DNA of 64,000 bases, taken from contig NZ_AQXI01000003.1 in assembly GCF_000376445.1 (NCBI RefSeq), positions 62,001 through 126,000 on the forward strand, given 5' to 3'. Made by a program: the position numbers and the translations under genes. Source of the DNA: Haladaptatus paucihalophilus DX253 (GTDB lineage: Archaea > Halobacteriota > Halobacteria > Halobacteriales > Haladaptataceae). Positions 25,952 to 41,205 of the stretch are shown in pieces. Numbering within the stretch: the first letter of the stretch is position 1; each line of letters starts with the position of its first letter. The notes under the pieces were generated by a model. That model was not told where the DNA came from. It worked only from the letters and a program-made list of their open reading frames with translations, and ran no database searches.

Positions 25952-25974
25952 ACGGGAAACCTCTCACTCGAATT

Positions 25975-26300
25975 AGATATGTGTGATGGTGAAGAAGGTT
26001 GTGCGGTGATGTCTGGTTGGTAGTTGTGATGGTTGGGATGGTGGTGATAGTGGTTTTGTTGCGGTAGTGGTGACGGTGGGGACGGTGGAAATGGTGATTC
26101 CGTCGTGGTAGTTCTGATAGTGGGGCTTGTAGTGATGGTGATGTTGGTAGTAATAGTGATGCTGTCGCGGCAGTTGTGATGGTTGAGATTGTAGAGATGG
26201 TGGTATTGTCGCGGTAGTCGTGAGAGTGAGAACGGTAGTAACAGTGGCACCGTCGCGGTAGTCCTGAGGGTGGGAAGTATCGCGATGGTTGCGAGCGTCG
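25975..26300. repeat. Degenerate 44-nt tandem repeat (minisatellite), about seven copies
   Basis: A G/T-rich unit beginning GGTAGTYGTGAT returns at 26019, 26063, 26107, 26169, 26213 and 26257, spaced 44, 44, 62, 44 and 44 nt, with a more diverged copy at 25975. The third unit has an 18-nt internal insertion. Units commonly end in GTCGC. Because 44 is not a multiple of three and all frames give low-complexity Thr/His/Tyr peptides unlike haloarchaeal proteins, I treat it as non-coding. It lies between two minus-strand genes and upstream of the SpoIIM-domain gene. The rest of the gap (26301-26414) is related, more diverged sequence. Confidence 0.8.
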
Positions 26301-26414
26301 GGATTCTTTCGAGGGTACCGAACGTACCGTTGGAACGAATCGTACCGTGAGTGCTGACTACCGTGATGGTTTCGATGGTAGCGATAGTACGAATAGTAAC
26401 TGAGTGTACGTCGG

Positions 26415-27269
26415 TTACCGGTCCGCGTCGTATTCGATGGTGAGGAACCGTCGACCGAACACCCACATCGCGTGTTCGGCGTGGATGCCGTCACCCTTCG
26501 GAGCCACGCGGAACCGCTGTTCCATCGGGAGCGCGACCGGACCGAGCGGCGTGCGGAGATACAACCCCTCGTCGCCCGTCTCGCTTCGGGTCGTCAGTTC
26601 GATGCCGGTCCCCTCGCCGTCTTCGTCACCGACCGACCCGTCGAGCGTTCGCACGTGCAGGACGGTGCTCAGGTTCGACCACGGGAGCGGGACGGCGATG
26701 TTGACGTAGCGGATTCCGTCCCGAACGTGGCTGGCGTAGATGGCGACGAAGACGGCGGTTCCCGTCCCGTCCGTTCGAATCCACGCTCGCGCCCCGTCTC
26801 GGTGGTCCTCGTCCGGGTCGATGGCGACGAGTTCGCTGGTGAGGGGGCCGCCGGACGACTGCCACGGGCCGGGGAGGTTGAGCTGTTCGATGCGGCTCGT
26901 GAGTCGGGCGGCGAGCGCCGCGCCGACCCGGAAGCCGCGGTGCCAGTGCACCCGATACGCCATGTCGTAGTCCGCGGTGCGCTCGTAGAACCGTCTGACC
27001 TCCGGGTGCACCTCGTCGGGGTCGAAGTCGGGACGGGCGAACGCCGCCATGTCGTCCATCTCGCCCGACAGTTGCACGCTGGTCGTAACGTCGTTCCGTT
27101 GAAGATAGTCCGAACCTACCCGGGTGCTGGCGACGAGCGGACTCAACGGAACGTCCCGTGTTTGGCGGAATGCCGAACGAGCGCGGCGACCGACCGCGAC
27201 GACGGAGACGAGAAGTGCGAGAAAGAATCCGACGGCGCGTCGGCGCGGATGGGCGGGCCACACGGTCAT
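26415..27269 (-). CDS. Membrane-anchored haloarchaeal protein, unknown function
   Basis: Protein of 284 residues with an N-terminal anchor (residues 10-30, RRAVGFFLALLVSVVAVG) and then a large soluble part. The visible blocks are DPDEVHPEVRRFYERTADYDMAYRVHWHRGFR, EQLNLPG and a C-terminal domain ending MWVFGRRFLTIEYD. I do not recognise a characterised family. An outside-in topology is not certain. It is divergent from the small GTG-start gene at 27368. Confidence 0.75.
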   Translation of the reverse strand: MTVWPAHPRRRAVGFFLALLVSVVAVGRRARSAFRQTRDVPLSPLVASTRVGSDYLQRNDVTTSVQLSGEMDDMAAFARPDFDPDEVHPEVRRFYERTADYDMAYRVHWHRGFRVGAALAARLTSRIEQLNLPGPWQSSGGPLTSELVAIDPDEDHRDGARAWIRTDGTGTAVFVAIYASHVRDGIRYVNIAVPLPWSNLSTVLHVRTLDGSVGDEDGEGTGIELTTRSETGDEGLYLRTPLGPVALPMEQRFRVAPKGDGIHAEHAMWVFGRRFLTIEYDADR

Positions 27270-27539: not shown

Positions 27540-28544
27540 CTACTCGCCGTGCCAGTCTAACACGGTCGCCGCCCACGTGTAGCCCGTCCCGGCGGCGAGG
27601 AAGCAAACGACGTCGCCCGATTCGACCAGTCCGTTCTCGAGTCCCGCGTCCAGCGCGAGTATCTGGTCCACGCTCTGGACGTGCCCGAACTCGTCCAGAT
27701 AGTAGTTCGCCGTGTCGAGCGTCGAACAGAGGTAGTCGTGGAACGACCGTTTCATGTGCGTCAGCGCGACGAATCCGAGGTCGTCCCGGTCGTAGTCCGA
27801 CCGCGAGAGCGCGGTGTCGGCCACGTCGAGGAAGTTATCGAGGCTGACCTCGCCCAATCGTTCCTTCATGCCGTCCGGGTCGGGCACGTCCAAGGTGTGG
27901 AGGTCCGCCGCCACGGTCGCCTCGCTGGGCGGGTTGCGCGACCCGCCAGCGGGCATCACCACGTCCTCCGAGAAGCGGCCGTCCGTTATCGCGGCGCTCT
28001 CCCGGACCGTGGCGACGGGGTCGTCCGGCGCTTCTTCGAGCACCATCGCGCACGCCCCGCTGCCGAAGTTGAACATGAACGAAGAGTCCTCGTTCTCGTA
28101 GTTCACGAGGTCCTCCTCCCGACTCGCCGAGACGAGCAGGATTCGCTCCGGGGCGTCCGCGACGAGGGTGGCTTTCGCTTGCCGGAGCGCGATGGGCGCA
28201 CCGGCACAGAGCGCGTAACTCTCGCTGGCGAACGCGTTTTCCGCGCCGATGCGCTCGGCGACGTTCGCCGCGGCGCTCCAGACGACGAAATCCTTGAACT
28301 CGCTGCCGTGATACAGCACCGCGTCGAGGTCAGTGGCTTCGATTCCGGCGTGGGAAAGCGCCCGCTCTGCGGCTTTCACGCACATGTCCGCCGCGTGGTC
28401 GCCGTCCGGCGGGCAAACGTGCTTTTCGCGGATGCCCATCTTCTCGACGACGACTTCCTCGGGAATCGCGCTCCGGCGAGCGATTTCTTCGCCCGTTACC
28501 GTCGCTTCGGGAACGTACAGTCCGTAGCCCGTGAGTCCGACCAT
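27540..28544 (-). CDS. KAS III/HMG-CoA-synthase-like condensing enzyme (3-oxoacyl-ACP synthase III family)
   Basis: Thiolase-fold protein of 334 residues. The nucleophile Cys113 is in SYALCAGAP and the catalytic histidine is His263 in LTHMKRSF. The third FabH residue, Asn274, is His288 here (FGHVQSVDQ), so the reaction likely differs from FabH. It is the last gene of the livKGFHM operon; its ATG shares a base with the livM stop (TAATG). Haloarchaea make no bacterial-type fatty acids, so a role in CoA-thioester catabolism or in an unusual C-C bond reaction of the transported substrate is more plausible. Inference. Confidence 0.88.
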   Translation of the reverse strand: MVGLTGYGLYVPEATVTGEEIARRSAIPEEVVVEKMGIREKHVCPPDGDHAADMCVKAAERALSHAGIEATDLDAVLYHGSEFKDFVVWSAAANVAERIGAENAFASESYALCAGAPIALRQAKATLVADAPERILLVSASREEDLVNYENEDSSFMFNFGSGACAMVLEEAPDDPVATVRESAAITDGRFSEDVVMPAGGSRNPPSEATVAADLHTLDVPDPDGMKERLGEVSLDNFLDVADTALSRSDYDRDDLGFVALTHMKRSFHDYLCSTLDTANYYLDEFGHVQSVDQILALDAGLENGLVESGDVVCFLAAGTGYTWAATVLDWHGE

Positions 28545-29827
28545 TATCTGAACCTCCGGAGCCGTGCGGGAATCTCTTTTGAGACGGGACCGCCGAGGCG
28601 GTCGCGGAGCGTGCCGAGCAACCCGTTCGGGACGAACAACACGAACAGCACGAACAGCGTGCCGACGTAGAGGCTCGCGTGGCCGTTCAGGAACGTCTCG
28701 ATGGCTCCCTGTACCGTCAGGCCGTTGTAAATCGTCGTTCCCATGACGCCCGACCCGAGGTGTGTTCTGAGGTACGGCAGGAGTCCGCCGCCCTCGCCCG
28801 CCTTCGACAGGAACTCGCGGAACGTCTCGTTGAACAGTTGGCCGTACAGCGGTCCGGCGAGGGTGCCGAACCCGCCGATGATGGAGGCCAACAGTGCGTC
28901 ACCCGCGACGAGGAAGTTGAACGACTCGTCCGGGGAGACGGTTCGTTCGTAGCCCGCCAGCAGGCCCCCCGCCACGGCGGCGAAGAAGGCGCTGATGGCG
29001 AACGCGCCGAGTTTGTAGCGGAAGGTGTCGTACCCCACCGCGATGGCGCGTTCCTCGTTTTCGCGGATGGCGACCATCACTTTGCCGAACGGCGAGTGGA
29101 TGATTCGCTGCATGGCGAAGTAGCAGACGAGCACCACGAGACCGATCATGTAGTAGGACACCTCCGTCTGACCGAGGTGGACGAATCCGAGCGATACCTC
29201 GTCACCGGTCAGCGCCCCGATGGAGAGGTTCAGCGCATCGACGCCGGGGACGCCGATATTGAGGCCGTTGGCCCCGTTCAGGAAGATGCCGTCGCGCGGG
29301 TTCGACCCGACGTAATCCCAGCCGCGGACGAAGACGTACAACACCTGCGCGAAGCCGAGGGTTATCATGGCGAAGTAGACCCCCGTCAGGCGGAACGATA
29401 CGGCTCCAATCGCCAGCGCGAGCGCGACGGCGACCAGTCCCGCGACGACGAGCGACACCATGAACGGCGTTCCCGGCGGGAGGAGCGGAATCTTGTCGTT
29501 CGCCGTGAGGATGACGAAGTACGCGCCGGTCCCGTAGAACGCGGCGTGGCCGAACGAGAGGTACCCCGTGTAGCCGCTGATGAAGTCGAACGACATGGCG
29601 AACAGGCCGAAGTAGAGGACGGGTATCATCGTCTCCACGCGCGGGAGGAGCGTCGCCGCCTCCGTCCCGAACGGCGAGTTCACCAGCAGGTGATACAGGC
29701 CGGGATAGGCCGCGAGGAAGGTGATAACCGCGAGGTGGACGATGTGGTCGCGGGTGTACTCTTCGACCCACGAGGCGTCCGTCTCCGAAATCGACCGCTC
29801 CGCGTCCGTTCCGGTTTCGGTGCTAAT
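28544..29827 (-). CDS. livM: Branched-chain-type ABC transporter permease LivM, apparent ATT start
   Basis: Permease with about ten TM helices; core motifs GYTGYLSFGHAAFYG, FVRGWDYVGSNPRDG, FGKVMVAIRENEERAIAVG. A GTG at 29683 starts an ORF of 379 residues, but that would cut off a hydrophobic helix (HLAVITFLAAYPGLYHLLV) that the family has. In frame upstream there is no ATG, GTG or TTG. The reading frame continues to an ATT at 29827 that overlaps the livH TAG by one base and is preceded, 7 nt away, by GGAGGTG. I therefore propose ATT initiation (427 residues), while the shorter GTG form remains possible. Confidence 0.88.
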   Translation of the reverse strand: MSTETGTDAERSISETDASWVEEYTRDHIVHLAVITFLAAYPGLYHLLVNSPFGTEAATLLPRVETMIPVLYFGLFAMSFDFISGYTGYLSFGHAAFYGTGAYFVILTANDKIPLLPPGTPFMVSLVVAGLVAVALALAIGAVSFRLTGVYFAMITLGFAQVLYVFVRGWDYVGSNPRDGIFLNGANGLNIGVPGVDALNLSIGALTGDEVSLGFVHLGQTEVSYYMIGLVVLVCYFAMQRIIHSPFGKVMVAIRENEERAIAVGYDTFRYKLGAFAISAFFAAVAGGLLAGYERTVSPDESFNFLVAGDALLASIIGGFGTLAGPLYGQLFNETFREFLSKAGEGGGLLPYLRTHLGSGVMGTTIYNGLTVQGAIETFLNGHASLYVGTLFVLFVLFVPNGLLGTLRDRLGGPVSKEIPARLRRFR

Positions 29828-30836
29828 GGCCCCCCACCTCCTCGACGCCGAACAGGCCCTGCGGCCGGAGGATGAGGACGACCACGAGGATGAGGAAGAT
29901 GGTCATCTCGGGCAGTCCCGCGAAGTCGATGGCGTTGACGAACCACCACGACATCGCCGCGTCCACCATGCCGACGAGGAGCGCCGCGACGACGGTCCCT
30001 CGGAACGTCCCGAGGCCGCCGACGATGACGACGACGAACGCCGGGAGGAGCGCTTCCGAGGCGACCGGGACGCTGGCACCCCACTTCGGGTCCCACATGA
30101 GCAACACCCCGGCGATTCCGGCCAATCCGGTGCCGAGCGCAAAGACGACGGTGAACACGCGGCGAACGTCGATGCCGAGCGCTTCGGTCATCTCCGCGTC
30201 CTCGCTTCCCGCGCGGATGACGAGTCCGTAGCGGGTCCGGGTCAGGAAGGCCCAGATTCCCGCGACGGTGAGCACGCCGAACGCGATTTCGAAGAGCGCG
30301 AGGCCGTTCACCGAGACGGAGCCGAGTCCGATCTGGTTCGTCAGGAAGCCGGGTTTCGTCCCGAAGGCGTCCTGCCAGTCGGTCTGGGGTTGCATGCCGT
30401 AGAACAGCACTGCGATTCGGACCAGTTCGTTCAGCACGAGCGTCAGCCCGAAGGTGAGCAGAATCTGGTACACCGGCGGGCGGTCGTACAGTTTGCGGAT
30501 GAGGCCGACTTCGACCGCGGTTCCGAGTCCGGCGAGCAGGGCGAAGACGACCACGACGGCCACGAAAAACAGGGCCAACCGCGTGATAGAACTGCCTCCG
30601 GCGGCGACGAACGCGACCATCACCAACCCGCCGAGGTACGCGCCCAACATGGTCAGCGACCCGTGGGCGAAATTCAACACACCCATCAGGCCGAAGATGA
30701 GCGTCAAGCCGCTCGCAATCATCACGTACAGCGCGGCCTTCGCCAACCCCTGAATGAACACCGACGCGAGCGTCGATGGCCGGAGGAAATCCCCCAGCGC
30801 GCTTCCGACCCCCGCGAGCGGAACGAGTTCCATCAT
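29823..30836 (-). CDS. livH: Branched-chain-type ABC transporter permease LivH
   Basis: Integral membrane subunit of 337 residues with about eight TM helices. Family motifs: LTLIFGLMGVLNFAHGSL near the N-terminus, GLVIRAGSEDAEMTEALGID, and FRGTVVAALLVGMVDA. It overlaps livF by 4 nt (ATGA) and livM by up to 5 nt. Members transport branched-chain amino acids, amides, urea or aromatic and other carboxylates, so the substrate is not decided by this gene. Confidence 0.94.
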   Translation of the reverse strand: MMELVPLAGVGSALGDFLRPSTLASVFIQGLAKAALYVMIASGLTLIFGLMGVLNFAHGSLTMLGAYLGGLVMVAFVAAGGSSITRLALFFVAVVVVFALLAGLGTAVEVGLIRKLYDRPPVYQILLTFGLTLVLNELVRIAVLFYGMQPQTDWQDAFGTKPGFLTNQIGLGSVSVNGLALFEIAFGVLTVAGIWAFLTRTRYGLVIRAGSEDAEMTEALGIDVRRVFTVVFALGTGLAGIAGVLLMWDPKWGASVPVASEALLPAFVVVIVGGLGTFRGTVVAALLVGMVDAAMSWWFVNAIDFAGLPEMTIFLILVVVLILRPQGLFGVEEVGGH

Positions 30837-31531
30837 GCCGAGAGATACCTCCGGAGTCGCTCGTCGTCCATCGACACCTCGTTCGCGTCGCCCTGTTCGA
30901 CGACGCGTCCGTTGTCGAGCACGTAGAACCGATCAGCGAGGTCGAGCGCCAGCGGGAGGTTCTGCTCGACCAGCAACAGCGTGGTATCCGTCGCCGCCTC
31001 TGCGAGCGCCTCGGCGACGGCCTCGACGATGAGCGGGGCCAGTCCCTCGCTCGGTTCGTCCACCAGCAGGAGTTCGTTCTCCCCGACGAGACCGCGGACG
31101 AGGGCCAACATCTGCTGTTGACCGCCGCTGAGATTTCCGGCCTCGCGGTCGCGGTGCTCTTCGAGGTCGGGGAACGTCTCGTAGGCGAGCGAGAGGGCCT
31201 CGTGCACGTCCTCCCCGCTCGGCACCGCCACCCGGATGTTCTCCTCGACGGAAAGTTGCGTGAACACCCGCCGCTCCTCGGGAATCCATCCGATTCCCAT
31301 CTCCGCGACTTCGTGGGTGCTCTTGCCGATCAGTTCCGTGCCGCGGAACCGGACGCTCCCCCGCCGCGGCGGGGTCAGTTGGAGGATGGTGCGGAGCGTC
31401 GTCGTTTTCCCGACGCCGTTTCTGCCGACGAGGGCGACGACTTCGCCCGCTTCGACTTCCATCGAGACGCCCTCCAAGACGTGACTCTCGCCGTAGTACG
31501 TGTGGGCGTCCTCGACGGTCAGCAGGCTCAC
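30833..31531 (-). CDS. livF: Branched-chain-type ABC transporter ATPase LivF
   Basis: ATPase of 232 residues. The start is a GTG at 31531 that overlaps the livG stop (GTGA); the open frame extends upstream but is a shadow of livG. Walker A GRNGVGKT, signature LSGGQQQM, Walker B LLLVDEPSEGL, switch His in LLVEQN region. It pairs with LivG. The LivF group lacks the C-terminal extension of LivG. Confidence 0.95.
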   Translation of the reverse strand: MSLLTVEDAHTYYGESHVLEGVSMEVEAGEVVALVGRNGVGKTTTLRTILQLTPPRRGSVRFRGTELIGKSTHEVAEMGIGWIPEERRVFTQLSVEENIRVAVPSGEDVHEALSLAYETFPDLEEHRDREAGNLSGGQQQMLALVRGLVGENELLLVDEPSEGLAPLIVEAVAEALAEAATDTTLLLVEQNLPLALDLADRFYVLDNGRVVEQGDANEVSMDDERLRRYLSA

Positions 31532-32295
31532 GCGATACCCTCCTCGACCTCGTAGCCGCCAAGGTACGCCTTTTGCACGTTCGGGTCGTCCCGCACCGAC
31601 TCCGGCGTGTCGTCGGCGATGACAGACCCCTGATTCAACACGACGATGCGGTCGCTGACGCGCATCACGATGTCCATGTTGTGTTCGACCAGCAGCACCG
31701 CGTGGTCCTCGGCCACGTCCTCGATGAGGTCGATTATCGTCCCCACGCTCTCGGAAGAGACGCCCGCGTTCGGTTCGTCGAGCAGGAGTACGTCCGGGTC
31801 GCCCGCGAGCGCGATGGCGACCTCCAACTGGCGCGTCTGGCCGTGGCTCAGGTTCCCCGCCGTCGTCTCGGCGAAGTCGTCGAGTTCCACGCGCTCCAGA
31901 ATCGCGTGGGCCTCTTCGGTGTGCTCCGGGAACGCCCTCGCGTTTCGAATCGGATTGGCCGACCCGTCCCCGTGTGCCTGCACCGCGACGCGGACGTTTT
32001 CGAGGACGGTACTCGTCGGGAAAACGTTCGTTATCTGGTAGGACCGGTGGAGTCCTAACCGCGCCGTCTCGTGGGGCTCCGTCCCCGTGATGTCCCGCCA
32101 CGACCCGTTCGTTCGGAATTCGATGCTGCCCTCGCTCGGCGCGAGCACGCCGGTCAACAGGTTGAAAAACGTCGTCTTGCCCGCCCCGTTCGGCCCGATG
32201 AGCGAACACAGTTCGTCCGCTTCGAGCGTAAAATCCACGTCATCGACGGCGACCAAGCCGCCGAACCGTCTCGTCAGCCCCGTAGTTCGGAGCAT
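31528..32295 (-). CDS. livG: Branched-chain-type ABC transporter ATPase LivG
   Basis: ATPase of 255 residues. Walker A GPNGAGKT, signature LSHGQTRQLE (a common LivG variant of LSGG), Walker B VLLLDEPNAGVS. It ends VQKAYLGGYEVEEG, the typical LivG tail. Only 1 nt separates it from the end of the binding-protein gene upstream. It begins right after livK in the operon. Confidence 0.95.
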   Translation of the reverse strand: MLRTTGLTRRFGGLVAVDDVDFTLEADELCSLIGPNGAGKTTFFNLLTGVLAPSEGSIEFRTNGSWRDITGTEPHETARLGLHRSYQITNVFPTSTVLENVRVAVQAHGDGSANPIRNARAFPEHTEEAHAILERVELDDFAETTAGNLSHGQTRQLEVAIALAGDPDVLLLDEPNAGVSSESVGTIIDLIEDVAEDHAVLLVEHNMDIVMRVSDRIVVLNQGSVIADDTPESVRDDPNVQKAYLGGYEVEEGIA

Positions 32296-32296
32296 G

Positions 32297-33712
32297 TTAG
32301 AGCGAGCAGGACATTCCGGCCGCGTCCTTCGGGATGGTCGCCTCCTCTCCCTCGATGGTGGCGAGCGGCTCGCCGGGCATGACGGCGGCGTCCCAGTTGT
32401 CTGCCCACTCGTCCGTGGTCGGGACTGGGTTGGCGACGGTCATCGAAGAGCGGGCCTGATTGTTGTACTTCTGGAAGACGTAGCCGCCCTCTCCCTTCGG
32501 CGTGTCTTTCACGGTCATACCGCGCATGGCCTCCGCGATGTCGGTCCCTTTGGTGGAACCGCTCTGGTGGACGCCCTGCACGATGGCCGATGCGGCGGTG
32601 AAGGTGCCCGAAGTGAACAGGTCCGGAACGACGCCGTAGGCCTTGGTGTACGAATCGACGAACGAGGTGTTGATATCGTTGTCGTACTGGTTCCAGTGAT
32701 AGCGGGTCGTGAACGGGCCGAGTTTCGTCTTCTCTATCTTCTCTTTCGTCAGCGGTTTGCCGATGACTTTCTGCATCGTCTGGCCGACCACCTTGTTCGT
32801 GATTTGGGTCGCAAAGCCGCCGAAGACGCGGTAGTCGTAGCTTCCGGAGAGGTATTCGGTGAACAGGTTCGGGAGCGTGGCGACGGTGAATCCGCCGACG
32901 ATTCCCTGTGCGCCCGCATCCTGTGCCTTGTCGAGCAGGCCCTTCCACTCCGAGTGCTCCTGCGGGACGAACTTCTTGCCGACGATTTCGACGCCTTCGT
33001 CCTCGAGTACCTGCTCGTAGTTGTTCACGACGGCCTTGCCGAAACTGTAGTCGGCCCCGAACAGGTACACCTTCTTCACGTCGGTTTCCTTGGCGACGTA
33101 CTTCCCGCCGCTTCGGGCGTCCATCGCGGTGTTCTCGCTCGCGCGGAAGACGAGGTTGTTGCACGTCTCGCCGTCCGAGGTGATGGATGCAGACGCGGCC
33201 GGTCCGGCGACGTACGGCACGCCGCTCGCCTTGGCCACCGTCTTGATGACCGTCGTCGCCGAGGACGACGACGCACAGCCGAAGAGCATATCGACCTTCT
33301 GGTCCGTCACGAGGTTCGTCGCCAGTTTCTTGGCCTTGCTCTGGGAGAACCCGGTGTCGCGGACGTACAGTTCGAAATCGGTGTCGCCGACCGACACGAC
33401 CGTTTTCCCGCTCTTGACGCCCGTCTTCGGGTCGGCGTCGGCTTTGTAGGCCAGTCCCGAAAGGAAGCCCCACAGGCTCTGTTGTCCGTAGTATTTGAGG
33501 CTCCCCGAAATCGGTTGGAGAACGCCGATTTTCACCGTCCCCGATACGTTCTTGGTCGTCGTCATGCCACCCGTTCCATTGTCGTTCCCCGATTTGTCGT
33601 CGTTCGTCGTATCGTTTGTGTCATCGTTTCCAGTGCACCCTGCCAATCCGGCAATCCCGACCGCACCCGCCGACGTGAGGACGTTGCGCCGTGTCAGTCT
33701 CCGCCTTGTCAT
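32297..33712 (-). CDS. livK: Substrate-binding lipoprotein of the Liv-type ABC transporter (LivK-like)
   Basis: Receptor of 471 residues. The ATG at 33712 gives a Tat signal with lipobox (RRRLTRRNVLTSAG, then LAGC), followed by a Asp/Asn/Thr-rich linker and a periplasmic-binding-protein type I fold: VKIGVLQPISGSLKYYGQQSLWG, DTGFSQSKAKKLATNLV, VDMLFGCASSSSATTV. The N-terminal cysteine is expected to be lipid-modified after Tat export. First gene of the operon livKGFHM-KAS III; a shared palindromic motif lies 39-54 nt upstream. Amide or short-chain carboxylate receptors share the same fold, so specificity is open. Confidence 0.94.
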   Translation of the reverse strand: MTRRRLTRRNVLTSAGAVGIAGLAGCTGNDDTNDTTNDDKSGNDNGTGGMTTTKNVSGTVKIGVLQPISGSLKYYGQQSLWGFLSGLAYKADADPKTGVKSGKTVVSVGDTDFELYVRDTGFSQSKAKKLATNLVTDQKVDMLFGCASSSSATTVIKTVAKASGVPYVAGPAASASITSDGETCNNLVFRASENTAMDARSGGKYVAKETDVKKVYLFGADYSFGKAVVNNYEQVLEDEGVEIVGKKFVPQEHSEWKGLLDKAQDAGAQGIVGGFTVATLPNLFTEYLSGSYDYRVFGGFATQITNKVVGQTMQKVIGKPLTKEKIEKTKLGPFTTRYHWNQYDNDINTSFVDSYTKAYGVVPDLFTSGTFTAASAIVQGVHQSGSTKGTDIAEAMRGMTVKDTPKGEGGYVFQKYNNQARSSMTVANPVPTTDEWADNWDAAVMPGEPLATIEGEEATIPKDAAGMSCSL

Positions 33713-33834: not shown

Positions 33835-34692
33835 ATGGCAGACGACGCGGTAACGCCGCCGACGTTCGACCCCGACGAGGTACTGCACGTCGAAGACGAC
33901 CACTTCACGCCCGAGAACGTGGCTATCGTGACGGGCGCGGCCTCCGGAATCGGTCGTGCGACGACGCTCGCGCTCGCCGCGAACGACCTCACGGTGGTCG
34001 GGACGGACGTGGACGAGGACGGCCTGGCCGAGACGACCGACCGCGCCGAGGAGTTGGAACTCGGACGAAACGTCGAAACGGTAGTTGCCGACCTCACCGA
34101 CGAGGACGAGATAGACCGCATCGTCTCCCACGCGGCGGACGCGGGCGCGGTGAAATATCTGGTCAACGTCGCCGGACTCCAGCACATCGACCCCATCGAC
34201 GAGTTCCCGGCCGAGCGGTTCGACCTGCTCCACGACGTGATGGTCCGCGCGCCGTTCCTGCTGGCGAAGGCCTGCCTGCCCCACATGCGCGAGAGCGGCG
34301 ATGGAACGGGCTGTATCGGCAACATGGCGTCGGTTCACGGCCACTACACCACCTCCGATAAGGTGGCCTACAACGTCTCGAAGTTCGGCCTCCGCGGCCT
34401 CACGCAGTCCCTCGCCGCCGAGGGCGACGGCGACGTTCGCGCCTTCTCGGTCAGCACGGGCTACGTGAAGACGCCGCTCGTGACGGACCAGATACCGGAC
34501 ACCGCCGAACAGCGCGGTATCAGCGTGGACGAGGTGGTCGAGGACGTGATGCTGGGCCAAGCGCGGACGAAGGACATGATGACGCCGCAGGACGTGGCGA
34601 ACCTGTTCGTCTTCGGCTTCTCCAAACACGCGGACCACCTGAACGGCGGCGACCTGCTGTTCGACGGTGGCATGACGTTGACCTACGAGTGA
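33835..34692 (+). CDS. Short-chain dehydrogenase, 3-hydroxybutyrate dehydrogenase-like
   Basis: SDR of 285 residues with an acidic N-terminal extension of about 25 residues. Cofactor motif VTGAASGIGRA, NVAGLQH (NNAG variant), Ser in NMASVHG, and YNVSK (YxxxK). The block GLQHIDPIDEFPAERFD followed by ASVHGHYTTSDKVAYNVSKFGLRGLT is close to 3-hydroxybutyrate dehydrogenases. Its divergent orientation from livK across the operator suggests a joint role in breakdown of the transported acid. Other 3-hydroxyacyl substrates are possible. Confidence 0.88.
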   Translation: MADDAVTPPTFDPDEVLHVEDDHFTPENVAIVTGAASGIGRATTLALAANDLTVVGTDVDEDGLAETTDRAEELELGRNVETVVADLTDEDEIDRIVSHAADAGAVKYLVNVAGLQHIDPIDEFPAERFDLLHDVMVRAPFLLAKACLPHMRESGDGTGCIGNMASVHGHYTTSDKVAYNVSKFGLRGLTQSLAAEGDGDVRAFSVSTGYVKTPLVTDQIPDTAEQRGISVDEVVEDVMLGQARTKDMMTPQDVANLFVFGFSKHADHLNGGDLLFDGGMTLTYE

Positions 34693-34865: not shown

Positions 34866-35567
34866 TCAGTCGAGCAGTTCTAGCGCGTCCACGACGCGCT
34901 GTATCATCTTTCGCTGTCCGCGGCGGAGGTTCTTCGAGACGGCGGGTTTCGAGACGCCGAACTCGTCGGCCAGCGTGCCGAGGGTGGCCGACCGCGGACT
35001 CTGGAAGTAGCCGTCCCTGACGGCGTGTTCGAGCGTCTCGCGCTCCACGTCCGAGAGGTCCCGACAGCCGTCGATGAGCGTCATCGCGGCCCCCGCGTTC
35101 TGCACGAGGTTCTGTAGGTCCGGCAGGTCGGGCGTTTCGCGCGATACGACCTCGAACTCGTTGTTCCATTCGAGTTCCGAGAGCGCGCCCTCCGCGACGT
35201 CCTCGTGATCGAAGCCGACGTGCCACAGTTCGTGGCCGTCCTCGATGTAGAACGGGCCGGTGATGTAGCCGTCGTGGTTGCGGATGGACTCCATCGCCTC
35301 CGTCTGCCCGATGGTGGTTCGGATGTGCGCGACGTTCTCCCGCTTCGACAGCAGGGAACAGTCGTGCATGTTGTCGTGTTCGCGGAGCGCCCGTAGACCG
35401 TGTTCGAGTTCGGTTCGGTCGTCACCCTCGACCACCAACCGCGTCTCCAACTCCTCCCGCGCTCGATCGAAATCCCAGTGAACGGCCGAGTACGCCACGC
35501 CGTAATCGTCGGAGGAGTCGATGAACGGGCAGTCGTACTGCTCCATGTCCATCGTGAGGTCTATCAT
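34866..35567 (-). CDS. HTH-10 (bacterio-opsin activator-like) transcriptional regulator
   Basis: Protein of 233 residues. The N-terminal half is the haloarchaeal input domain; residues 175-225 are the HTH-10 domain: SDVERETLEHAVRDGYFQSPRSATLGTLADEFGVSKPAVSKNLRRG. Regulators of this type are usually pathway-specific. Situated between the transporter/SDR unit and the ligase/hydrolase unit, it is the natural candidate to bind the shared palindrome. That link is an inference. A TATA box is expected near 35595-35605. Confidence 0.88.
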   Translation of the reverse strand: MIDLTMDMEQYDCPFIDSSDDYGVAYSAVHWDFDRAREELETRLVVEGDDRTELEHGLRALREHDNMHDCSLLSKRENVAHIRTTIGQTEAMESIRNHDGYITGPFYIEDGHELWHVGFDHEDVAEGALSELEWNNEFEVVSRETPDLPDLQNLVQNAGAAMTLIDGCRDLSDVERETLEHAVRDGYFQSPRSATLGTLADEFGVSKPAVSKNLRRGQRKMIQRVVDALELLD

Positions 35568-36304: not shown

Positions 36305-38005
36305 CTATTTCGCCTCCCCGAACTCCGACTTCACCGCTTCCCTATCTATCTTCGACGGCCCGGACATCGGCATCCCGTCCACGAACGCGAGGTGGCGCGG
36401 GCGCTTGAACCGCGCGAGTTTGCCGTCGAGAAACGCCTCCAAATCGGATAGCGTGAGCGACTCGTCACCCTCGACGACCGCTTTTCCGACCTGTCCCCAC
36501 TTCTCGTGGGGGACGCCGACTACGACGACTTCCTCGACCTTCGGGTGGTCGGCGATGACGTCCTCGACTTCGGCGGGGTAGACGTTCTCGCCGCCGCTGA
36601 CGTACATGTTCTTCTTTCGGCCCTCGATGTAGACGTAGCCGTCCTCGTCCACGCGCGCGAGGTCGCCCGTGGACACCCACTCGCCGGTAGATTCGCGCCC
36701 CTCGTCTTCCGGGCTTCCATTCGCCTCGCTCACGGGTATCCCGAACGTCTCCGCGCTCTCCTCCGGATTCTTCCAGTAGCGGTCGGCGGCGTGGGGCGAG
36801 GCGAGTTCGAGTTCGCCGATGGTCCCTGACGGGAGCGGTTCGCCGTCGTCGTCCACGACGCGGGCATCGACGTGCATTGCGGGAACGCCCACGCTGTCGG
36901 ATTTCTCGTGGGACCAGCCGTCCGGCAGGGTGAAGTTGTTCGGTCCGCACTCGGTGAGCCCGTAGCCCTGCGAGAGTTCGATGCCGCGGTCCCACCACGC
37001 CTCCATCACCGAGTTGCGGCACGGGCCGCCGCCGCTCTTGGCGAAGCGGAGCGTCGAGAGGTCGGTGTCGTCCCACTCGTCGTGGTGACACATCATCCGC
37101 AGGACGGCGGGGACCGCGACGAGGACGGTCGCCCCTTCCGACTCCACCAGTCGGAGCACGGACTCGGGGTCGAACTCGCGGGCGATGACCACCCGCGCGC
37201 CGAGGTGGAAGAGGGGGACCGTGAGGACGTTCCACCCGCCGGTGTGGAACAGCGGGAACACCATCGGCGTCACGTCCTCCGGGCGCAACCCCCACGCAGT
37301 GATGGTGTTGAAGGAGTTCCAGAGGACGGAGCCGTGGGTGATGACCGTCTCCTTCGGGACGCCCGTGGAACCGCCCGTGTGCAGGAAGAGGTGCGGGTCG
37401 TCCATCGACACGTCGGCGGTTTCGACCGGCGAACCGTCCACCGGACGGACCGAATTCCACGACCGCCATTCGTCCTCTCTCCATTCGTCCCCCCGCCATT
37501 CGCCCTCTCGTGATTCGGCCGCGTGCGATGCGGACCCGTCCGACGGGTCCGAATCGCTTTCCGACGAATCCTCGTCCGCCGGGAGCGTGACGACCGTCGT
37601 TTCGAACTCGCGGGCGTCGTGGGACAGCACGTCGGCGGCGAGCTCGGCGAAGGGCGCTTCCACGACGAGCAGTTCCGGTTCGACGTCGTTCAGCATCTGC
37701 ACCAGTTCGCGCGGTGCGAGGCGGTGTGAGAGCGGTGCGAGCACGCCGCCGGTCTTCCCGGTGGCGAAAAAGCAGTCGATGAGTTCCGGACGGTTGCGCG
37801 AGAGGACGGCGACGCGCTCGCCGTCGGCAACCCCGTGTTCGCGGAGCAGTCGGGCGGTGCGGTTCGCCCGTCGGTCGAGTTCGCGGTAGGTGTAGCGCTC
37901 GCCCGTGGTGGCGTCTACCAGCCCCACCGCGTCGGGAGAGAGTTGCGCCCGCTTTTCGCTCCACGCGCCGACCCATTCGTACGGCCGCGTCGAGTGCTCA
38001 GGCAT
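36305..38005 (-). CDS. Acyl-CoA ligase/synthetase (AMP-forming)
   Basis: ANL-superfamily enzyme of 566 residues. It activates a carboxylic acid with ATP and CoA. Phosphate-binding loop HTGGSTGVPKE, A5 QGYGLTECGP, A7 STGDLARVDEDGYVYIEGRKKNMYVSGGENV, catalytic lysine near GPSKID. Residues 145-190 are a polar insertion with four degenerate EWR-type repeats made by a 15-nt tandem DNA repeat. It overlaps the hydrolase gene by 8 nt and so forms one transcript with it. The natural acid is unknown. Confidence 0.93.
   Translation of the reverse strand: MPEHSTRPYEWVGAWSEKRAQLSPDAVGLVDATTGERYTYRELDRRANRTARLLREHGVADGERVAVLSRNRPELIDCFFATGKTGGVLAPLSHRLAPRELVQMLNDVEPELLVVEAPFAELAADVLSHDAREFETTVVTLPADEDSSESDSDPSDGSASHAAESREGEWRGDEWREDEWRSWNSVRPVDGSPVETADVSMDDPHLFLHTGGSTGVPKETVITHGSVLWNSFNTITAWGLRPEDVTPMVFPLFHTGGWNVLTVPLFHLGARVVIAREFDPESVLRLVESEGATVLVAVPAVLRMMCHHDEWDDTDLSTLRFAKSGGGPCRNSVMEAWWDRGIELSQGYGLTECGPNNFTLPDGWSHEKSDSVGVPAMHVDARVVDDDGEPLPSGTIGELELASPHAADRYWKNPEESAETFGIPVSEANGSPEDEGRESTGEWVSTGDLARVDEDGYVYIEGRKKNMYVSGGENVYPAEVEDVIADHPKVEEVVVVGVPHEKWGQVGKAVVEGDESLTLSDLEAFLDGKLARFKRPRHLAFVDGMPMSGPSKIDREAVKSEFGEAK
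37464..37523. repeat. Four degenerate 15-nt tandem repeats inside the acyl-CoA ligase gene
   Basis: Units CGCCATTCGTCCTCT, CTCCATTCGTCCCCC, CGCCATTCGCCCTCT and CGTGATTCGGCCGCG follow each other without gaps. They encode the repeated EWR/EDEWR-like insertion and keep the frame. Confidence 0.8.
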
Positions 38006-38801
38006 CGTCGAGGAAGGTTCGGAGTCGTTCGTTTACCGCCCCGGACTGCTCGATGAAGAAGAGATGTGGTCCGCCCTCGAAGGGTTCGAGTTCCGCGTGC
38101 GGGATGCGGTCGGCGAGCAGTTCGGCGTTCTCGAAAGGTAGTACGCTGTCCGCGGTTCCGTGCGCGATGAGGGTCGGGAGCGAGAGTTCACCGAGACGGT
38201 CGCTGGCGTCGAAGTTCGTGACGCCCATCGCCTGTGCTCCCCTCGCTTCGTCGGACGCGTCACCCGCCAGTCGCCAGTCCACGATGTCCGAGAGGAGGTC
38301 GTCGTGCTCCGCGGCGAACTCCTCGGTCATCGCGGGGGCCATCTTGTAGCGAATCGCCTCGCGTTCGTCGCACCCCTCGGGCACGTCGAACATCCGTTCC
38401 TGCGTCTCCGGCGGCGTCGGCACCCCCTCGTCGCCGCCCGGCGTGGTGCAGAGGAGAGAAAGCGTCTGCGCCCGGTTGTAGTCGAGCGCGTACTGCTGGG
38501 CTATCATCCCGCCCATGCTCGCACCGACGACGTGTACCGATTCGACGCCGACGGCCGCGAGTACCGCTTCGAGGTCGCCCGCCATCTCCTCGATGCTGTA
38601 GGGACCGTCCGGCGCGTCGGAATCCCCCGTCCCGCGGTTGTCCCACACGATGACGCGATAGTCGTCCGCGAACGCCTCGCGTTGCCAGCGCCACATCCAC
38701 CGCCCGTAGCCGAGTCCTTCCACGAAAACGATGGGGTCGGCGTCCGTCGGTCCGTGCTCCTCGTAGTAGAGCGAAACGCCGTCGTTGTCGGTAAATGGCA
38801 T
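37998..38801 (-). CDS. Alpha/beta hydrolase, 3-oxoadipate enol-lactonase/haloperoxidase-like
   Basis: Protein of 267 residues. Oxyanion region VFVEGLGYGRWMWRWQ, nucleophile Ser in VGASMGGMIAQ, acid Asp in HGTADSVLP, and His in EGGPHLFFIEQ. The start at 38801 (MPFTDNDGVSLYYEE) is preferred over the longer frame. Ester or lactone hydrolysis is expected. It is the first gene of a two-gene unit with the ligase; a palindromic operator lies 38-53 nt upstream. Confidence 0.9.
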   Translation of the reverse strand: MPFTDNDGVSLYYEEHGPTDADPIVFVEGLGYGRWMWRWQREAFADDYRVIVWDNRGTGDSDAPDGPYSIEEMAGDLEAVLAAVGVESVHVVGASMGGMIAQQYALDYNRAQTLSLLCTTPGGDEGVPTPPETQERMFDVPEGCDEREAIRYKMAPAMTEEFAAEHDDLLSDIVDWRLAGDASDEARGAQAMGVTNFDASDRLGELSLPTLIAHGTADSVLPFENAELLADRIPHAELEPFEGGPHLFFIEQSGAVNERLRTFLDDA

Positions 38802-38838
38802 GCGTATTGCGACGTATGAGCGTGTAATCAACCCCCTG

Positions 38839-38888: not shown

Positions 38889-39281
38889 ATGCCAGTCGCA
38901 TCCGTCGGGGACTCCGAAACGGCAACGTTGGAACTGACGCAGGAACGAATCGACCGGTTCGCGGCGCTCACCGGCGACGAGAACCCGCTCCACGTGGACG
39001 CCGACTACGCCGAGGACGGACTGTTCGGGGGTCGCGTCGCCCACGGTGCGCTCACGGCCAGCGTCGTCAGCGCCGCGCTCGCGGCGCTCCCCGGCGACAT
39101 CGTGTATCTCTCCCAGAACATCGACTTCGAGAATCCCGTCCGGCCGGGGGAAACCGTCAGCGCGACGGCGACCGTGACCGAGGATTTGGGCACGGACCGC
39201 CTCGCGGTGGAAATCAGCGCGGAAACCGACCGGGAAGTCCTCTCCGGCGAGGCGACAGTCATGTCGCTTCCGCACGAATAG
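38889..39281 (+). CDS. MaoC-family (R)-enoyl-CoA hydratase-like protein
   Basis: Hot-dog fold of 130 residues with the hydratase 2 motif FAALTGDENPLHVDADYAED, including the catalytic Asp and His, then LFGGRVAHGALTAS and VRPGETVSATATV. It should hydrate a 2-enoyl-CoA to (R)-3-hydroxyacyl-CoA. It is divergent from the hydrolase-ligase pair across operator B, consistent with CoA-ester catabolism. Confidence 0.92.
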   Translation: MPVASVGDSETATLELTQERIDRFAALTGDENPLHVDADYAEDGLFGGRVAHGALTASVVSAALAALPGDIVYLSQNIDFENPVRPGETVSATATVTEDLGTDRLAVEISAETDREVLSGEATVMSLPHE

Positions 39282-39283
39282 GG

Positions 39284-39742
39284 TCACCAACCGTATCGCC
39301 CTGTTTCTGCGCCACAAACTTCGCAGTAGAACACGACTTCGCCGTCCGACTCTTCGGGGACTGCTGGCGTTCGCTCCTCACACGACGGGCACGTTCGGCG
39401 GAGGTCCATCGGTTCGTCGCTACGCGGCGCACCGAGTGCGAGGACGACGAGTCGGTCGCCCCCGTCGTTCCTCCCCTGTTGCCACTCGCCCGGTGCGAAC
39501 CGTATCAGTTCCCCGGCGTCTACTTCGACATCTCCGTCCTCGGTTTCGAACGTCGCCGTGCCCGAGAGGACGTAGAACACTTCCTCCTGCTTGTGATGGC
39601 GGTGATAGCAATCGCCGATGTGTTCGCCGGAAGCGCGTTCGTAGTAGTTGAGTGCGAGGCCGGTAGCCCCGAGCGCTTCGGTGAGCGGTTGGAATGCGCG
39701 GGACGCGTGGCCGTTCGTATCCTCTATTGCGACTTTCTTCAT
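39284..39742 (-). CDS. Cupin-domain protein with C-terminal zinc ribbon
   Basis: Protein of 152 residues. Cupin motif 1 is HRHHKQEEVFYVLSGTATFET and motif 2 EWQQGRNDGGDRLVVLALG, with metal-binding His/Glu. The C-terminus has CPSCEE and CEVCG, a zinc ribbon. The start at 39742 (MKKVAIEDTN) is chosen over the longer frame by comparison to the conserved beginning. It converges on the MaoC gene with two bases between the stops. Function unknown; often a sensor or small-molecule enzyme. Confidence 0.88.
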   Translation of the reverse strand: MKKVAIEDTNGHASRAFQPLTEALGATGLALNYYERASGEHIGDCYHRHHKQEEVFYVLSGTATFETEDGDVEVDAGELIRFAPGEWQQGRNDGGDRLVVLALGAPRSDEPMDLRRTCPSCEERTPAVPEESDGEVVFYCEVCGAETGRYGW

Positions 39743-39858
39743 CTCGTGTGGATTCACGTGGATGTCGATAATGGTTTTCCACACCCCGAAAGTGCCGCCG
39801 AACTACCGACTCGTATCGCCCGCTGTACTTTTACCTGTGCCCGTTGCTCACATGAGCC

Positions 39859-41205
39859 ATGACGACGACAGCAGAACTCGCGGATTTCGTCGCGGAAACG
39901 ACCTACGATGATCTTTCGGAGGACACGGTGGACGAACTCAAAAAGCGGGTGCTCGACTCGGTGGGAATCGCCGTGGGAGCGATGGGCGAAAAACCCGTCG
40001 AGGCGGTTCGCGCGACCGTCGAGGAGATGGGTGACGGCGGGGACTGTACGCTCTGGGGTGGCGGAAGCGCGTCCCCGCCGGACGCGACCATGCTGAACAC
40101 GGCGTACGTCCGGTATCTCGACTACATGGACTCGTTTCTCGCACCCGGCGAGACGCCGCATCCGAGCGACAACATCGCCGCCGCAATCGTGTGCGGGGAG
40201 TACGAGGGGTGTACGGGGGAAGACCTCATCACCGCCATCGCCGTCGCGTACGAGGTGCAGGCCGAACTGGCGTGGAACGCGCCAGTTCGGGACAGAGGAT
40301 GGGACCACGTTACCCACACCGTCATCTCGGCGACGGCGGGCGCGTCGAAACTGCTCGGGTTGGACCGCGAGGAAACCCGGTCCGCCATCGGCATCGCCGG
40401 AACCGCGCACAACGCCCTCCGGGTGACGCGGACCGAGGGCATTTCGGAGTGGAAGGGTCTCGCCTCAGCGAACGCCGCGCGAAACGCCGTCTACTCGGCG
40501 ATGCTGGCGAAAAACGGCGTCGAGGGGCCGACGAACCTCTTCGAGGGGCAAAAGGGATGGAAGCATATCGTCTCCGGCGAGTTCGACGTCGACCTGTCGC
40601 CGGGCGAGCGCGTCCACGACGTGATGACGAAGCGGTACGTCGCCGAGACGTACGCCCAGTCGGCCGTCGAGGGAATCATCGAGTTGGCGAAGCGCGAGGA
40701 CATCGACCCCGACGACGTGGAATCGATTCACCTCGATACGTTCGCGGGTGCGAAACTCATCATCGGCGGCGGCGAGGGGTCGCGCTACGAGGTGGAGACG
40801 AAGGCGCAAGCCGACCACTCCCTGCCATACATGCTCGCCGTGTCGCTCATCGACCGCGAGATGACGAACGCGCAGTACGACCCGGACCGAATCCGACGGG
40901 ACGACGTACAGGAACTCCTTCGAACCGTCGAAGTGGAGGAGGACGGGGACCTCACGGACCGCTTCGAGGCGGGCGAGATGCCCGCGAACATCGACGTGGT
41001 GATGGACGACGGCACGACGTACCACGTCGAGAAGGACGACTTCGCGGGCCATCCGAACAACTCGATGTCGTGGGAACAGGTTGAATCGAAGTTCGAGCGG
41101 ATGACCGAATCCCGATACGACGAAGCGCACCGGGGGGACATCATCGAGACGGTACGCGGACTCGAAGACCGGGATGCCGACGACATCGTGCGGTTACTCG
41201 ACTAA
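39859..41205 (+). CDS. MmgE/PrpD family protein (2-methylcitrate dehydratase-like)
   Basis: Protein of 448 residues covering the whole family: LKKRVLDSVGIAVGAMG, DATMLNTAYVRYLDYMDSF (the DxxD region), GWDHVTHTVISATAGASKLLGL, and GYKHI-like GWKHIV. Members include 2-methylcitrate dehydratase (propionate catabolism) and cis-aconitate decarboxylase. No prpB, prpC or acn gene is adjacent, so the substrate is uncertain. It is divergent from the cupin gene. A role in degrading a short-chain or branched acid fits the neighbouring cluster. Confidence 0.92.
   Translation: MTTTAELADFVAETTYDDLSEDTVDELKKRVLDSVGIAVGAMGEKPVEAVRATVEEMGDGGDCTLWGGGSASPPDATMLNTAYVRYLDYMDSFLAPGETPHPSDNIAAAIVCGEYEGCTGEDLITAIAVAYEVQAELAWNAPVRDRGWDHVTHTVISATAGASKLLGLDREETRSAIGIAGTAHNALRVTRTEGISEWKGLASANAARNAVYSAMLAKNGVEGPTNLFEGQKGWKHIVSGEFDVDLSPGERVHDVMTKRYVAETYAQSAVEGIIELAKREDIDPDDVESIHLDTFAGAKLIIGGGEGSRYEVETKAQADHSLPYMLAVSLIDREMTNAQYDPDRIRRDDVQELLRTVEVEEDGDLTDRFEAGEMPANIDVVMDDGTTYHVEKDDFAGHPNNSMSWEQVESKFERMTESRYDEAHRGDIIETVRGLEDRDADDIVRLLD

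Follow-up and report, generated by a model that had tools for sequence, protein, structure and literature searches.

Haladaptatus paucihalophilus DX253 carries a FabH-like enzyme, which we call KS, whose gene is one part of a three-part unit: KS, an AMP-binding acyl-CoA ligase and the binding protein of a Liv transporter are gained and lost together across related genomes, while an SDR and a MaoC-like hydratase are optional. The active site of KS resembles those of DpsC, CerJ and ChlB3 more than the kind used in fatty-acid synthesis, and this likeness, taken with its inheritance alongside the ligase and the uptake system, makes it probable that KS processes an imported compound in an undescribed pathway. 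As to the reaction itself, we tentatively put forward, at a little short of an even chance, that KS is a carrier-protein-free enzyme of KASIII fold that takes CoA esters as substrates, as part of an accessory pathway of import, and forms carbon–carbon bonds of the Claisen type.

The gene and its neighbourhood

The window, by which we mean the whole stretch of 64,000 nucleotides that was analysed, holds the following genes around KS:

27540..28544, minus strand: KS, FabH-like enzyme, NF005308/PRK06840, 334 amino acids
28206-28208, 27756-27758, 27681-27683 and 27666-27668, minus strand: KS codons for Cys113, His263, His288 and Asp293, respectively
28544..29683, minus strand: livM-type permease, its stop sharing one base with the KS start
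29823..30836, minus strand: livH-type permease, an open reading frame with relatives annotated as branched-chain amino acid ABC transporter permease
30833..31531, minus strand: livF-type ATPase, GTG start, 232 amino acids, with relatives annotated as ABC transporter ATP-binding protein
31528..32295, minus strand: livG-type ATPase, an open reading frame with relatives at other loci
32297..33712, minus strand: livK-type substrate-binding protein (Peripla_BP_6), in an open reading frame that extends to 33796, the likely start being at 33712
33835..34692, plus strand: SDR similar to 3-hydroxybutyrate dehydrogenase, an optional neighbour outside the co-inherited unit
34866..35567, minus strand: HTH_10 regulator with an HVO_2525 N-terminal domain, beside livK in most loci
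36305..38005, minus strand: AMP-binding acyl-CoA ligase, co-inherited with KS
37998..38831, minus strand: alpha/beta hydrolase, as a rule immediately preceding the ligase
38889..39281, plus strand: MaoC-like hydratase, an optional neighbour

The KS gene is real: it is present in one copy, has a GC3 of 0.86, and finds relatives at 60–89% identity across the haloarchaea, the closest (89%) in a Haladaptatus. The original prediction gave no strand for it, and had placed Cys113, His263 and His288 (in FGHVQSVDQ) correctly in the translation; the overlap with livM that it described is also there, since livM ends in ...AGATAATGG and the A at 28544 serves both as the last base of its TAA and as the first base of the KS ATG (TAATG). 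Further along, at 39284-41205, MaoC is followed by genes for a cupin and for a member of the MmgE/PrpD family, and a similar cupin gene lies near KS in two other loci (L011 and L034). On the other side, low-complexity reading frames rich in His, Thr, Ser, Pro and Tyr occupy 25973-26494, which may be repeat DNA instead of a gene.

Family, fold and active site

KS has the two Pfam ACP_syn_III domains and is a full member of an existing named family, NCBIfam NF005308 (PRK06840, ‘3-oxoacyl-ACP synthase’, an equivalog), which it matches over residues 2–332 with 403 bits against a curated cut-off of 315. The family is functionally uncharacterised as far as we found; an open-access literature search brought up no functional study of it, which is of course not proof of absence. 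Its name implies an acyl carrier protein (ACP) and fatty-acid synthesis, and neither is supported here, where a profile search of the 99.95%-complete genome found no ACP (PF00550), the same search being positive in 11 of 14 control genomes. With the FabH models KS scores 109 and 122 bits, below half of their cut-offs (292 and 249), and with the HMG-CoA synthase (HMGS) models it stays far below (67, 55 and 22 bits against 244, 353 and 360). In addition, the same genome has a separate HMGS-like gene (contig C1:1140514), and this, together with the lack of a detectable ACP, leads us to conclude that KS is neither FabH nor HMGS.

It would therefore be very improbable that KS is an ordinary housekeeping FabH or HMG-CoA synthase that happens to lie beside a transporter, an idea that draws on the KASIII fold and the database name and is opposed not only by these scores, the missing ACP and the second gene but also by two active-site changes, Asn to His and Ser to Asp, and by a patchy distribution, with matches over the cut-off in only 34 of 99 related genomes. 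Such matches also occur in 20 of the 393 genomes of a phylum-wide draw and in one named control genome, which can only be Thermus composti or Bacteroides ihuae. The view that KS cannot be standard FabH thus stands, and its homologues did not prove to be the HMG-CoA synthases or housekeeping enzymes that would have spoken against an unusual role.

The AlphaFold model (mean pLDDT 83.8, pTM 0.86), made from an alignment of KS with its haloarchaeal relatives, has a KASIII fold, and its best match in the PDB is a FabH (2x3e; Z 35.5, rmsd 2.7 over 307 residues), with the top matches all being KASIII enzymes. The fold does not, however, discriminate between FabH, OleA and the other classes that share it: OleA, BioZ, PqsBC and NatS trail the best match by no more than about 2 Z units, so that it cannot choose among them. 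The closest full-length sequence matches are likewise FabH, not DpsC. Near the active site, loop 83–88 is poorly modelled, and it overlaps a segment, HGSExKD (residues 79–85), that is invariant in haloarchaea, with Glu82 giving way to Gln or Gly elsewhere. MAFFT aligns Glu82 with the catalytic Glu of HMGS, and an HMGS-like mechanism through this residue was considered and dropped because the profile comparison with the genome’s own HMGS-like protein was not significant and because of those replacements outside the haloarchaea. In OleA and PpyS a catalytic Glu reaches across the dimer (PMC4578411); in the MAFFT alignment, where the comparison runs by way of FabH, Val88 of KS falls on FabH Phe87.

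Four residues, Cys113, His263, His288 and Asp293, are the same in all 60 haloarchaeal sequences compared and are also kept in L095, an Archaeoglobi-like member of the family (this group label, and methanogen-like below, are our guesses). The His that had been predicted at the third FabH catalytic position is present, and it turns out to be no lone oddity: against E. coli FabH, His288 lies on Asn274 and Asp293 on Ser279, and alignments with DpsC, CerJ and ChlB3 indicate that Asp293 completes a GHxxxxD signature. In a phmmer search of the PDB, FGHVQSVDQ was aligned with TGHVGAGDQ of CerJ, and a query with the CerJ segment brings up both DpsC (TGHLGGGD) and ChlB3 (LGHLGASD, that is H296/D301), the latter with a published triad of Cys113-His296-Asp301 (PMC9573744). 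Judged by these alignments, His288 and Asp293 are the motif common to DpsC, CerJ and ChlB3 and absent from FabH. At these two positions Asn and Ser/Thr are found in all 13 FabH-type comparison proteins, which come from bacteria and from other archaea of the phylum, and His and Asp in one Burkholderia protein. In a tree that is small, unrooted and without full CerJ, ChlB3 and DpsC sequences, the His/Asp and Asn groups sit on opposite sides of a supported split, for which the support is still 99 after removal of the active-site columns.

The first His needs more care. That KS keeps His263 is correct insofar as the residue is present and invariant, but in a gapless alignment it is Thr262 that lies on His244 of E. 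coli FabH, with His263 on Gln245. The first His of DpsC (in VVLPHMGW) comes one residue later than that of FabH in the same count, and in this column CerJ has Val and ChlB3 Asn; of three alignment settings, one places His263 of KS (in VALTHMKRS) in the column, and the other two separate it from there by a gap. Across the family, position 262 varies (Thr, Val, Leu, Asn), and position 263 is His in all haloarchaea and in the Archaeoglobi-like member and Gln in two methanogen-like members. Given this variation at 262, the conservation at 263 and the later column in DpsC, we infer a register in which His263 is probably a first catalytic His of the DpsC type. It is kept where the ligase and Liv adjoin KS, and the members with Gln are unlinked. 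Cys/Ser-His-His sites, as in DpsC and CosE, belong to condensing enzymes, and acyl transfer is associated with the first His being lost (PMC4425429). Two family members (L096 and L097, in genomes G248 and G287) have a Cys-Asn/Gln-His-Asp site that lacks a His at both 262 and 263, with neither ligase nor Liv close by, and from sequence we would predict these to be acyltransferases, not condensing enzymes.

Co-inheritance and gene order

The same 99 related genomes were searched for KS, the ligase and LivK, which divides them into 36 with KS (34 full, 2 partial) and 63 without. The ligase is found in 36/36 of the former and 2/63 of the latter, and LivK in 36/36 and 4/63, counts for which Fisher p-values ignore relatedness and are not readable as probabilities. 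In nine genomes KS is separated from Liv or the arrangement has changed, and in these both ligase and LivK are still present. Within five genera some genomes have the genes and others lack them, and in each of the five KS, ligase and LivK come and go jointly; the exception is one genome, 62% complete, that has only the ligase. The SDR, counted by hand as a control, is present in 32/36 KS-positive and 34/63 KS-negative genomes, and was rejected as a core partner since it is widespread regardless of KS. These counts and their control define the unit as KS, ligase and LivK, and the proposed linkage to a Liv transporter is thus real and, at the level of genomes, very strong.

Two genomes deserve separate mention. 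In G002 (C1:488598-490337) only the C-terminal third of KS is left, beside the SDR, with ligase and LivK gone, and what remains has the look of a degraded cluster. G046 (C14:540331-548178) has orthologues of ligase and LivK together and no KS match, the one clear exception to co-inheritance.

Gene order is looser. By manual count, the Liv operon lies directly upstream of KS on the same strand in 24 of 34 loci (in one of them with a second ligase-like gene in between), and is divergent beside a ligase–KS pair in three (L014, L019, L027); the other seven have no Liv locally, one of these being at a contig edge. A place for KS at the end of a Liv operon, as originally described, therefore holds for those 24 loci but is not universal. 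MaoC, for which constant linkage had been envisaged, was ruled out as such by the survey of loci, and it is the AMP-ligase that is the constant partner besides Liv. The usual order, found on annotated plasmids too, is MaoC (opposite strand), hydrolase, ligase, HTH_10 regulator, livK-G-F-H-M and KS. Beyond the haloarchaea, one genome of the phylum (G175; KS 34–37% identical) has ligase, KS, two genes, livH and livM in a row, and livK-G-F on the opposite strand at a distance of about 6 kb, and two further genomes of the phylum have KS without ligase or Liv partners nearby.

Among the conserved loci no further constant neighbour of KS was found, the candidates being mostly shadow reading frames and one recurrent gene similar to class I glutamine amidotransferases. 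In four loci without local Liv, the latter lies directly 3' of KS on the same strand:

L011:11100-11816, same strand as KS: class I glutamine amidotransferase-like gene
L015:11056-11748, same strand as KS: class I glutamine amidotransferase-like gene
L022:11057-11752, same strand as KS: class I glutamine amidotransferase-like gene
L034:10573-11298, same strand as KS: class I glutamine amidotransferase-like gene

In a plasmid locus (L069), such a gene is instead placed between the HTH gene and livK. Two genomes (G022 and G017; loci L108 and L109, respectively) have two KS copies each, both over the family cut-off.

A candidate reaction and what it would mean

How might such a unit work? The Liv transporter would import a carboxylic acid or its ester, from which the alpha/beta hydrolase may release the acid, and the ligase would convert the acid to an acyl-CoA. 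Cys113 of KS would then accept the acyl group from CoA, and His263, together with the His288–Asp293 pair, would drive Claisen-type bond formation with a second CoA ester, which by analogy with DpsC might be malonyl-CoA. We think that carbon–carbon bond formation is likelier than plain acyl transfer, since the condensing His is kept where ligase and Liv adjoin KS; against this, CerJ and ChlB3, with the same His/Asp motif, are acyltransferases. Condensation or retro-condensation, as first proposed, is possible, with acyl transfer as a serious alternative.

If KS were an acyltransferase of the CerJ/ChlB3 kind, a Cys113-His288-Asp293 triad would move the ligase-made acyl group to or from a hydroxyl, amine or thiol and there would be no carbon–carbon chemistry at all. 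We consider this unlikely, though by no means far-fetched, for KS matches CerJ exactly in GHVxxxDQ, where the published triad is Cys-His-Asp, the gapless alignment puts Thr262 in the FabH His244 column, and the methanogen-like members and the Burkholderia relative keep His/Asp without a His at 262 or 263. Yet His263, invariant in haloarchaea and kept in L095, would in the DpsC register take the place of the His missing from CerJ and ChlB3, the conserved neighbourhood offers no obvious acceptor gene, and a purely acyl-transferring enzyme became less attractive once DpsC was seen to combine GHxxxxD with a first His in the His263 column. A gene tied to an importer may serve breakdown just as well as synthesis, and KS might also run in the thiolase direction, with the ligase activating an acid, MaoC and the SDR producing a 3-oxoacyl-CoA, and KS cleaving it with CoA by a retro-Claisen reaction. 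The presence of importer, ligase, MaoC and a 3-hydroxyacid-dehydrogenase-like SDR in one cluster, accessory and patchy as catabolic islands are, speaks for such a route; the inconstancy of SDR (32/36 with KS, 34/63 without) and MaoC speaks against it, as does the fact that no acyl-CoA dehydrogenase was seen in the cluster, and to our knowledge KASIII enzymes lack the thiolase-type second Cys. On balance we find cleavage of this kind improbable.

Like the starter-unit enzymes of type II polyketide synthesis, the KSIII proteins DpsC and CosE, KS combines a Cys/Ser nucleophile with a third-position His that is followed five residues later by an Asp, and one alignment setting out of three also gives it a first His in the DpsC column; unlike them, it is nearer to FabH in sequence, has no ACP and no polyketide genes among its conserved neighbours, and is linked to a transporter and a ligase. 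The KSIII-like acyltransferases of polyketide pathways, CerJ and ChlB3, share GHxxxxD (in CerJ and KS, GHVxxxDQ) but have lost the first His to Val and Asn, where KS has His263 in the DpsC register and Thr262 in that of FabH. With FabH, KS has in common the KASIII fold and the Cys nucleophile, and it differs in the replacement of Asn274 by His and of Ser279 by Asp, in the Thr of the His244 column, in the lack of an ACP and in scores below the FabH cut-offs. An ACP-independent archaeal fatty-acid synthesis has been hypothesised, with an SDR-type reductase, MaoC and chemistry at the CoA level (PMC3533463), whereas KS is an accessory gene of patchy distribution, linked to an importer and a ligase.

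The NF005308 family is already known by name, and the KASIII fold is common; what appears to be new is a site of the DpsC/CerJ/ChlB3 type in an ACP-free archaeal setting, within a strict three-part unit. A more ambitious proposal, which we rate as rather unlikely at present, is that archaea have an undescribed pathway that converts an imported acid to its CoA ester, which is then extended or rearranged by a carrier-free ketosynthase with a DpsC-like Cys-His-His/Asp site; this would be polyketide-style carbon–carbon chemistry at the CoA level in organisms that have no ACP. Databases call the relatives of KS ‘3-oxoacyl-ACP synthase’ although the H. paucihalophilus DX253 genome has no detectable ACP, and the active-site match, with the strict co-inheritance of ligase and binding protein, replaces this vague name with a unit for which a substrate can be sought. 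Carbon–carbon bond formation by KS would mean that archaea have a ketosynthase that does without ACP, and acyl transfer would make KS an archaeal equivalent of the acyltransferases of antibiotic pathways.
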